The translations under genes were made by a program, and so were the position numbers. DNA of 64,000 nt from Lacticaseibacillus mingshuiensis. GTDB taxonomy: Bacteria; Bacillota; Bacilli; Lactobacillales; Lactobacillaceae. Positions 30,183 to 54,150 of the stretch are shown here, one piece after another. Location: contig NZ_BOLS01000006.1 of assembly GCF_016861785.1 (NCBI RefSeq), positions 1-64,000 of the forward strand. The letters run 5' to 3'. The notes under the pieces are model-generated. The model was not told the DNA's origin. It searched no databases and was given only the letters and a program-made list of their open reading frames with translations. How positions within the stretch are numbered: position 1 is the first letter of the stretch; each line of letters opens with the position of its first letter.

Positions 30183-30194
30183 TATTAGGTACTT

Positions 30195-30266
30195 GCGCGG
30201 TTAGTGTAATGGATCGCACGTGAGATTCCGGTTCTCGAAATCAGGGTTCGACTCCCTGGCTGCGCA
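30195..30266 (+). tRNA. tRNA-Arg (anticodon CCG)
   Basis: A full cloverleaf: acceptor GCGCGGT with GCTGCGC, D-stem GTGT with GCAC, anticodon stem TGAGA with TCTCG around loop TTCCGGT (anticodon CCG), T-stem CAGGG with CCCTG, and discriminator A at 30266. CCA is not encoded. A terminator follows at 30297-30327. Phage genes begin just beyond, so its 3' end is the probable attachment site of the prophage. Confidence 0.92.
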
Positions 30267-30290
30267 TAATCAATAGAAAGCACGCAACTG
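30240..30290. other. Probable prophage attachment site at the tRNA-Arg 3' end
   Basis: Phage lysis genes begin 400 bases to the right, and the host glycolytic operon lies directly to the left. tRNA 3' ends are common phage integration sites. The core cannot be bounded because the other att copy is outside the window. This is inference from position. Confidence 0.5.
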
Positions 30291-52894: not shown

Positions 52895-52953
52895 TTTACT
52901 CACCTCAAAAAAATAGTACTCCAGCATGAACTGGAATACTACATTGAGGTGAA

Positions 52954-53026
52954 TGTAGACGGCAGGGTTTGAACCTGCACCCACGCAATTATAAGTTGCG
53001 CGCTCTACCGATTGAGCTACATCTAC
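52954..53026 (-). tRNA. tRNA-Ile (anticodon UAU)
   Basis: A complete cloverleaf: acceptor GTAGATG with CGTCTAC, D-stem GCTC with GAGC, anticodon stem CGCAA with TTGCG around CTTATAA (anticodon TAT), variable TGGGT, T-stem GCAGG with CCTGC, discriminator A. CCA not encoded. The UAU anticodon reads AUA, a codon rare in G+C-rich hosts. Most bacteria read AUA with a CAU tRNA modified by TilS. Confidence 0.85.
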
Positions 53027-53099
53027 TGTGAGAGGTGGGAATCGAACCCGCATATTGCCCGCCTGATGACGGGGCGCTTTTCCACTTAGCTACTCTCAC
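53027..53099 (-). tRNA. tRNA-like sequence, anticodon uncertain
   Basis: Acceptor GTGAGAG with CTCTCAC is perfect, and the T-arm (GCGGG/CCCAC) has one mismatch. The anticodon arm is irregular: the best stem is CGCC/GGCG around CCGTCATCA, a 9-base loop, and no fold gives a five-pair stem with U33. A CAT reading (Met) needs two mismatches. It abuts the tRNA-Ile gene without a gap. It may be a degenerate gene. Confidence 0.5.
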
Positions 53100-53161
53100 A
53101 CGCTCGCTCCCCCGTCAGACGGGATCGTCGCAGGCTATATCCGGTCACTAAACCGGGCAAT

Positions 53162-53219
53162 GAGGCCAGACGGGACTCGAACCCGTGACTCACGGCTCTA
53201 CCTACTGAGCTACCGGCCT
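53162..53219 (-). pseudogene. tRNA-like sequence lacking the anticodon arm
   Basis: Acceptor AGGCCGG with CTGGCCT, D-arm GCTC-AGTAGGTA-GAGC and T-arm ACGGG-TTCGAGT-CCCGT are all canonical. Between the D-arm and the T-arm only 8 bases remain where about 22 are expected, so the anticodon arm is missing. The rest shows no decay, which is odd for a pseudogene. Confidence 0.6.
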
Positions 53220-53318
53220 CTGTGCGCCTGTTTATCGCTCCCTCAACAGACTGAGTGGCTTCTAGCCGTAACAAGCGATACAGCACATTAGGTTCTGGGT
53301 AACCTTTTGGGCCCGAAC

Positions 53319-53386
53319 TGCTCCGTGCCGGAATCGAACCGGCAGCCATGCGTGGCTTCCACATCGGAGCTACCTATCCACGGAGG
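53319..53386 (-). pseudogene. tRNA-like sequence with altered D and anticodon arms
   Basis: The T-arm (GCCGG-TTCGATT-CCGGC) is perfect and the acceptor (CCTCCGT with ACGGAGC) pairs in six of seven positions. In the middle the strongest hairpin is AGCCA-CGCA-TGGCT, with only a 4-base loop, so no usable anticodon loop exists. The 100 bases between this and the next tRNA-like sequence contain no gene. Confidence 0.45.
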
Positions 53387-53482
53387 CATGATCACCGCGA
53401 ATCGGGTTGGAACATCACAAAATGAAAGAAGGAAGCACCGCCGGCTCTCACCTTTGGCACAATACAATATTAGCACGCCATT

Positions 53483-53965
53483 TCAGGGTAGATGTTCGCT
53501 CTTTGTTCGCACTTTGTTCGGTGTTCGTTCGCTGTTTGTTCGGACCAGCAATCCATGATCGCCAGCTGGCCACAATCCGGCAAATGTATATAGTGCATCT
53601 TTCAGTACGTCATAGTAGCCCGTTTTCCCATATCCAGAATCCGCAATCAACAGCTCTACAGCAATTGGCCGCTTGATGTAGTAGTCCTTCAGTATGTTGC
53701 GGTGAGCGTCGTCCTCAATGCAGCCGATTGTCTTGTCACAAGCCTCTATGTACGTCTCATCGTCAATGTGATCCGTAATCCTGATCTCAACGACGTTGCC
53801 AATCGATGGCGACCTTGGCATGCCATCAAGCGATGGCGACTTGATCGAGGCCTTCACACGTGCCCGCTGCTTGCGTCTGCGATAATCTTCTAGCACTGTG
53901 TCAGCGGCAAGTACGGACGCCTCATAGTCCCACGGGCTCACAGCATTAGCTGTTGTCTTTCTCAC
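53483..53965 (-). CDS. ArpU-family late transcription regulator
   Basis: 160 residues from the GTG at 53965, which has AAAGGAG ten bases upstream. ArpU pattern: VLEDYRRRKQRARVKASIKSP, LDGMPRSPSIGN, CIEDDAHRNILKDYYIKRPIAV and YGKTGYYDVLKDALYTFAGLW, a sigma-70 region 4-like helix-turn-helix. ArpU proteins control late genes of Firmicute phages. The last ~19 codons are five 11-bp DNA repeats. An in-frame ATG at 54040 would add a hydrophobic helix (MLFTAWVGVWFWANW) and cannot be excluded. Confidence 0.82.
   Translation of the reverse strand: MRKTTANAVSPWDYEASVLAADTVLEDYRRRKQRARVKASIKSPSLDGMPRSPSIGNVVEIRITDHIDDETYIEACDKTIGCIEDDAHRNILKDYYIKRPIAVELLIADSGYGKTGYYDVLKDALYTFAGLWPAGDHGLLVRTNSERTPNKVRTKSEHLP
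53488..53542 (-). repeat. Five tandem 11-bp repeats at the end of arpU
   Basis: Minus-strand consensus CGAACAAAGNG; units at 53532-53542, 53521-53531, 53510-53520, 53499-53509 and 53488-53498. All begin CGAAC; the last diverges at its end. They are one helical turn apart, in the coding 3' end of arpU and just upstream of an A/T-rich TAATAT region (about 53467-53472), like activator sites ahead of a promoter. Confidence 0.85.
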
Positions 53966-54036
53966 CAGCGCGTCACTCCTTTCCCAGTTTGCCCAGAACC
54001 ACACGCCCACCCAGGCTGTGAACAGCATGACGGCAA

Positions 54037-54150
54037 TCAACGGTCATGCCACCAGTTGTAAATTATCAAGACAGCAAGCGCGGTGAGGCCAATGATTGTA
54101 GCAACGACCTCGAACCAGAACTTGATTCCGATATAATCATATAAGCTCAT
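54037..54150 (-). CDS. Small membrane protein
   Basis: 37 residues with one helix (FWFEVVATIIGLTALAVLII) and a WWHDR end. ATG follows GGAGGCGGAG. It overlaps both neighbours by four bases. Such single-helix proteins are frequent before late regulators; function unknown. Confidence 0.65.
   Translation of the reverse strand: MSLYDYIGIKFWFEVVATIIGLTALAVLIIYNWWHDR

Follow-up and report, generated by a model that had tools for sequence, protein, structure and literature searches.

tRNA-like structures without an anticodon arm as candidate processing signals in probable late leaders of Lactobacillaceae phages

Bacterial Y RNAs of the YrlA type have a tRNA-like module, tmRNA has a message and a G3-U70 alanine signal, and C4 is a single regulatory RNA with no array in a late leader. 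The precursor of C4, an antisense RNA of phages P1 and P7, resembles the tRNA-like structures (TLS) described here in being a phage RNA other than a tRNA that is cut by host RNase P (excerpt of PMC4919922). The same excerpt describes mascRNA and menRNA (from MALAT1 and MEN-beta) and the t-elements of plant mitochondria, where tRNA-like folds mark sites for RNase P cutting, with RNase Z also acting on the two long noncoding RNAs (PMC4919922). These examples are eukaryotic, whereas the elements considered here form arrays in probable phage late leaders, and some of their lower halves are reduced to 14–20 nt. The tRNA-like domain of tmRNA, like the TLS, corresponds to the upper half of a tRNA without an anticodon (excerpt of PMC3929946); the main TLS acceptors (GTGGCA and GCAACYG) differ from it in that the third pair is not G-U. 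ROOL and GOLLD are large structured phage RNAs that are often found near tRNA islands (excerpt of PMC12286853). Phage tRNA arrays are clusters of tRNA genes, some of which decode, whereas ARAGORN gives no amino acid to 70 of the 91 elements in the broad set analyzed below. In open-licence PubMed Central papers, we found no description of arrays of anticodon-less tRNAs in phage late leaders.

The window analyzed here is the whole 64,000-nucleotide stretch of Lacticaseibacillus mingshuiensis DNA. Its phage matches suggest a prophage, and phage matches were likewise used to assign a family and genus to the genomes compared below. On its minus strand, an ArpU-like gene is followed in order by a conserved motif, TLS D, a spacer, TLS C, a linker, TLS B, tRNA-Ile(TAT), and an intrinsic terminator. 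We consider it moderately likely, judging from sequence comparisons, that this array is an ArpU-driven late leader in which the TLS would be cut by RNase P and RNase Z and would act as punctuation between structured spacer RNAs. What we observe directly is the position of the TLS, their conservation, their compensatory changes and strand bias, the absence of an encoded CCA, a U at +1 or +2, the folding of the spacers, and, in the broad set, an enrichment of U at −1. The features of the locus are as follows.

53483–54040, minus strand: ArpU-like late transcription activator gene (phrog_248 transcriptional activator, E 1.9e-22)
53494–53543, no strand assigned: five direct repeats, GTTCGC/GTTCGG as written on the plus strand, at exact 11-bp spacing in the 3′ end of the activator gene (read by eye)
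53467–53472, minus strand: candidate −10 box TAATAT, proposed from the sequence
53447–53464, minus strand: conserved motif TATTGTGCCAAAGGTGAG, in at least 120 viral stretches and 9 of 301 family genomes, all 9 being among the 15 of the window's genus
53319–53370, minus strand: TLS D, 52 nt, with a 6-bp acceptor, one small hairpin, and a T arm (by homologue comparison)
53221–53318, minus strand: spacer RNA between D and C, fold z −1.6, with related sequence in L011, L079, L111, and L128
53161–53220, minus strand: TLS C, followed by TTG (Rfam tRNA, 44.0 bits in a permissive scan, above the gathering score)
53100–53160, minus strand: linker RNA with two hairpins, fold z −1.1 (calculated for this copy plus its first base)
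53027–53099, minus strand: TLS B, adjoining tRNA-Ile without a spacer (Rfam tRNA, 44.4 bits)
52954–53026, minus strand: element A, canonical tRNA-Ile(TAT) with no encoded CCA (Rfam tRNA, 73.1 bits)
52913–52942, minus strand: intrinsic terminator after the array, with a 13-pair stem and a T run (terminator prediction)

The first-pass annotation had described four minus-strand tRNA-like elements here, one a complete tRNA and three without a normal anticodon arm. Rfam, ARAGORN, and the homologues all bear this out, and the acceptor and T arms are good, as it had said; the borders it gave to D had to be moved. Homologues of D have ATCCCG/CGGGAT or CCCCG/CGGGG where the window has GCTCCG/CGGAGC, and because these acceptor variants pick the inner strand, D is placed at 53319–53370 with GCTCCG as its 5′ acceptor strand. 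The earlier, longer D of about 70 nt was ruled out on the same ground. D has neither a D arm nor an anticodon arm, and it sits where the first TLS ("TLS1") sits in other leaders. The 5′ acceptor strand is doubled both in 53319–53386 and in TLS1 elsewhere (GTGGCA twice; CTCCG twice), which would allow alternative TLS of two sizes, about 54 and 65 nt. In C, the acceptor, D, and T arms are intact and 8 nt replace the anticodon arm; C is unlisted when the fast filters of Rfam are used, and a homologue is present in L079. B has an acceptor paired at 7/7 positions, a D stem of 3 bp, and a T stem paired at 4/5 with one C-A, and ARAGORN reads its anticodon as two bases only, "???(tc)". Across 11 distinct homologues of B, pairing holds in 73/77 cells for a hairpin that has one bulge and a loop of four bases (ATCA, ATTA, or ATGA), but in just 30/55 for a canonical anticodon arm of 5 bp and 7 nt. 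Relatives of B at 91.4–95.9% identity occur in six named phages (10 records), two of which are Herelleviridae.

The combination expected of a functional tRNA, a cloverleaf with a 5-bp/7-nt anticodon arm and U33, is found in A only and not in B, C, or D. All four elements have a U within 2 nt after the discriminator and no encoded CCA: in A, T stands at both +1 and +2, the trailer of C starts with TTG, D has G at +1 and T at +2, and B has G at +1. On the 5′ side, B alone among the three TLS of the window has T/U at −1, and C and D have A. Since B abuts tRNA-Ile, one RNase P cut would make both ends. No ROOL or GOLLD match in the window reaches the Rfam gathering score, and ARAGORN finds no tmRNA there; the array has neither the model match nor the G3-U70 pair of a tmRNA. 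A match to the YrlA Y RNA across B and A reaches 23.6 bits against a gathering score of 69. In Rfam scans of the arrays as a whole, only tRNA, plus ROOL in one other locus, reaches gathering score. We also rejected the idea that the array is a copy of host tRNA genes or an attachment site, as a search of its own 2.76-Mb genome (at E 0.001) finds no match to the 581-base array other than itself. Elsewhere in the window, at 30194–30267 on the plus strand, there is a tRNA-Arg(CCG) at 47.5 bits.

The five repeats at 53494–53543 are probably the operator of the activator, and TATTGTGCCAAAGGTGAG is the probable start of the late transcript. In many leaders, tandem words at about 11-bp spacing lie upstream of the motif, and by eye these words differ with the activator allele. 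Such allele-specific direct-repeat regions ahead of a constant start region are probable late promoters. In phage phi13, the late promoter needs four direct repeats, which lie in the 3′ end of the late-regulator gene (excerpt of PMC13123087). A promoter consensus scan of the window gave no minus-strand promoter at the candidate −10 box (53467–53472). The operator word and the activator seem to change together, with the repeats inside the 3′ end of the activator gene and a constant start region after them.

To compare leaders, we collected the sequence behind the motif from the window, named phages, viral contigs, and genomes of the genus, which gave 124 distinct leaders of at least 500 nt; an earlier set held 106 distinct leaders including the window. 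At least one TLS is present in 116 of the 124, so this is not local decay. These leaders hold 179 TLS, 100 of which come from one TLS group. ARAGORN assigns an amino acid to just 11 of the 179 (4 tRNA-Ile(TAT) and 7 others), gives 10 an unassignable anticodon, and leaves 158 uncalled. The strand bias is strong: the sense strand of the 106 leaders carries 164 T arms, 157 of them with an acceptor partner, compared with 2 and 0 on the antisense strand, and a stricter scan gives 146 T arms, 53 with an acceptor partner, whereas first-order Markov sequences give 0.2 and 0.0. Of the 106 distinct leaders, 104 have one or more T arms on the sense strand, and in 93 a T-arm element has its end about 130 nt past the motif start. 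Leaders hold 212 TLS in 148 kb versus 31 in 2.39 Mb elsewhere in the examined loci, where the 31 include real tRNAs and leaders with a variant motif. Eight leaders lack a TLS. Four of them (L035, L121, L132, and L136) hold visibly altered TLS, and in the other four (L031, L033, L093, and L095) no TLS is visible by eye though the motif is present. In L031, L033, and L095, the motif is followed, with no TLS between, by an open frame that by eye starts like a secreted coiled-coil protein. The T loops TGCAAAT, TGCAAGT, TCCGATT, and TGCAACT occur in L013, L130, L132, and L144 in place of TTCRANN.

The activator family reaches well beyond this genus, with phrog_248 in 77 of 151 family genomes and 27 of 40 genera. 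From the matches listed, we took 89 regions of 1300 nt each behind ArpU-like genes (30 loci and 59 stretches; 86 lie outside the genus of the window). TLS or tRNAs are present on the sense strand in 47 of these regions, with 91 elements on this strand versus 5 on the antisense strand, and no TLS was found within the 1300 nt of the other 42. Upstream of the activator gene, 39 kb from the 30 loci hold 1 sense and 1 antisense element. Among the best-scoring 24 regions from other Lactobacillales, 3 have one match each, and the match in L255 is probably due to chance. The shortest forms, of 46–52 nt, consist of an acceptor, 14–20 nt, and a T arm, and 16 non-redundant examples come from 12 genera. 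Words resembling the GG of a D loop (TGGT, TGGC, AGGA, or AGGC) occur in 17 of 22 short middles versus 6.0 in shuffles, these words having been picked after inspection; plain GG occurs in 19/22 against 14.9 expected, a count reached by 22 of 2000 shuffles.

Next, we considered whether the TLS are functionless, decaying phage tRNA genes, which we judge quite improbable. The same arrays do hold elements to which ARAGORN assigns an amino acid (21/91 in the broad set), and acceptors are broken in some copies, for example in L039, L083, and L121. The figure of 21/91 is an upper limit for decoding tRNAs, because it includes cases such as a "tRNA-Phe(aaa)" with a long hairpin and an AAAA loop. Decay fits poorly with the membership of 100 of the 179 leader TLS in one group and with the recurrence of the minimal design in 12 genera, and it is further contradicted by compensatory changes in acceptor and T stems and by a 3′ signal kept in 57 of 59 TLS, as described below; a tRNA pseudogene would lack such selective constraint. 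The first-pass annotation had proposed a search of related phages for armless forms and for compensatory changes in them, with a lack of conservation as a refuting outcome. The forms are conserved, leaving its reading unrefuted, and compensatory stem changes are found in the two largest TLS families.

In the 46 distinct forms of the first TLS, the acceptor is paired in 256/276 cells, compared with a mean of 220.6 (s.d. 4.9, maximum 236) in 1000 shuffles, and the T stem is paired in 223/230 cells, compared with a mean of 210.1 and a maximum of 217. The rows used for these counts were chosen by the T-loop motif and its closing pair and not by the remaining pairing, and in TLS1 of the GTGGCA type the 5′ strand has two upstream copies, either of which could pair. 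At the position of D, the TLS fall into four acceptor types, and they show four T-stem types that are fully paired. For the second TLS, 21 of 42 table rows pair at 7/7, while 14 Leu-like rows are off register by two bases and two B rows by one; for the out-of-register rows the acceptors were identified by visual inspection, and we leave aside the pooled count from this table. Homologues of B are present in Lb338-1 and Lbab1, both Herelleviridae, together with a 57-nt TLS (GCGACTG/CAGTCGC) that resembles a 58-nt form (GCAACCG/CGGTTGC) with two compensatory pair changes. In these large phages (L006, Lbab1, and L007, Lb338-1), the B-type and 57-nt TLS share their strand with ROOL and tRNA genes.

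In the later TLS, the acceptor and T arm stay constant while the middle is replaced: GCAACYG acceptors enclose several unrelated kinds of middle, 22 to 64 nt long, and the Leu-like family has a constant D arm with middles of 65 to 85 nt. Such swaps bear on the main rival to processing, which is that the TLS are themselves the products, either as stable RNAs displaying a variable hairpin on a tRNA scaffold or as RNAs that occupy host factors gripping the elbow and acceptor. We regard this as rather unlikely. In its favor, the middles of the GCAACYG and Leu-like families are exchanged like cassettes, the middle of TLS1 is constrained (21 variants in 46 distinct forms, most differing at few positions), and B is conserved between temperate phages and Herelleviridae. 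Against this, the 16 non-redundant TLS from 12 genera with middles down to 14–20 nt leave little room for a cargo, and the linker found behind several types of TLS is itself conserved.

Strongly varying middles would also be expected of an arms race, and the first-pass annotation had proposed decoys for anticodon nucleases or similar tRNA-targeting defences. The anticodon loop is the usual cut site of anticodon nucleases. This loop is the very part that is missing, and the forms of 46–52 nt have no room for an anticodon arm, so we consider decoys very improbable. Of the interpretations offered in that annotation, non-decoding function survives, with processing signals for the late transcript or RNase P substrates best supported by the sequences, whereas decoys are not supported, and simple deletion decay is contradicted by the conservation, by the compensatory changes, and by 3′ signals that remain intact. 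Its observation that the anticodon arm is lost selectively extends to many phages in which the acceptor/T half is retained, which argues for a function without decoding.

We next consider the signals that processing would use. RNase P favors U at −1. In 59 non-redundant TLS, T stands at −1 in 30 (p = 4e-4; the acceptor/T stack itself was required by the scan). On the 3′ side, T follows the discriminator at +1 in 48/59 (p = 2e-16) and is found at +2 in 40/59 (p = 1e-9), so that 57/59 have T at +1 or +2, where 29.6 are expected. There is no T excess at −6 to −2 or at +3 to +8. An encoded CCA is absent from all 70 TLS and all 21 tRNAs of the broad set. B. subtilis RNase Z is stimulated about 200-fold on CCA-less precursors when a U lies no more than 2 nt from the discriminator (excerpt of PMC10100781), and what RNase P, RNase Z, and the CCA enzyme gauge in their substrates is the acceptor/T side together with the elbow (excerpts of PMC4919913 and PMC4810234). 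Among Lacticaseibacillus leaders, the commonest trailer in each of 22 acceptor groups, which are partly related, always has T at +1 or +2. In these leaders, the acceptor is often preceded by A (second TLS) or C (inner strand of TLS1), and the RNase P signal is therefore weaker than the RNase Z signal. Loss of the decoding part with retention of the processing features is what is expected of processed non-decoding RNAs and not of decaying genes.

A further possibility is that the array is a leader for transcriptional control, in which nascent structures and the terminator set late read-through and the tRNA-like folds are incidental. The array does lie directly behind a probable late promoter, and a terminator-like hairpin is found 3′ of the last TLS in 101/116 leaders with TLS, at a median of 122 nt and up to 647 nt (counts given with no shuffle baseline). 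Control of this kind does not account for the missing CCA, for U at +1 or +2, for the T loop, or for the GG that resembles a D loop, and we think it improbable.

Returning to processing by RNase P and RNase Z, we analyzed the sequences that would be released. The mean fold z of 33 spacers is −2.02, with 16 below −2, compared with −0.20 and 9/99 for 99 fragments of matching length from upstream genes (p = 6e-8). Reverse-complemented spacers have a mean z of −1.50 (sense versus antisense, p = 0.09), and because they also fold well, spacer folding does not prove the strand. A hairpin starts within 5 bases of the element end for 29/74 TLS or tRNAs, compared with 16% at random positions; five bases further the count is 12/74, and thirty bases further it is 22/74. 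The linker, known in 35 distinct forms and 125 copies, follows TLS 3′ ends in other phages too. In 102/125 copies its start coincides exactly with the 3′ end of TLS1 or a close variant; in 14 the start lies at the 3′ end of a TLS with another acceptor, and the remaining 9 follow other sequence. Of 126 linkers, 63 have no recognizable T loop within 140 nt downstream.

In one TLS/tRNA array behind an ArpU-like gene, ROOL lies between a 49-nt TLS and tRNA-Lys (L242/L272). ROOL loci served as a test of the punctuation idea, and the flanking is clean at one of four (L272); in L271 the TLS overlaps the assumed end of ROOL, and in L269 and L270 no TLS was found flanking it. With only 1/4 loci clean, ROOL was rejected as a general neighbor of the arrays. 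A bolder version of our reading, to which we give somewhat less than an even chance, is that anticodon-less mini-tRNAs, as short as 46 nt, make up the noncoding late leaders of Lactobacillaceae phages, direct the release of a set of phage-specific structured RNAs, in one locus including ROOL, by the RNase P and RNase Z of the host late in infection, and form a new class of RNA.

From these observations, we infer a transcription start, cleavage, products, and a benefit, the last being either release of spacer RNAs or trimming of the leader. The ArpU-like protein would bind the repeats spaced at 11 bp in the 3′ end of the gene that encodes it, and transcription would start near TATTGTGCC. In the leader RNA, the TLS would keep the determinants of RNase P, RNase Z, and the CCA enzyme, namely the acceptor stem, the T arm, and often the elbow. 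RNase P would cut the 5′ end of each TLS, and RNase Z would cut after the discriminator, aided by the U at +1 or +2. These cuts would divide the leader RNA into the TLS themselves and structured spacer RNAs, of which the conserved linker is one, and would separate the array from the downstream genes, with the terminator behind it. We propose that the lower half could be shortened, deleted, or replaced many times because nothing needs it. If this is true, the use of tRNA mimics to mark cutting sites, familiar from single RNAs, would serve phages of many lactobacilli as modular punctuation at the start of their late transcripts, and hidden small RNAs of these phages, each with definite ends, are predicted. 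The TLS would also be natural minimal candidate substrates for RNase P and RNase Z, and the arrays would offer one setting for a possible release of ROOL RNA. A caution for annotation would follow, as tRNA finders either overlook such elements or report them as aberrant tRNAs.

Two smaller observations concern the window's own genome. The "tRNA-Phe(aaa)" mentioned above is found in L199 and in L200, a second ArpU-like locus on contig 13 of the same genome, where inspection shows a long hairpin with an AAAA loop; that of L200 is probably another TLS. Around the terminator, a 53-bp palindrome at 52900–52952, TCACCTCA...TGAGGTGA, is found at 92.5–98.1% identity in 13 phage records that match only bases 1–53 of the query. 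It precedes the cargo gene and could mask its ribosome-binding site.
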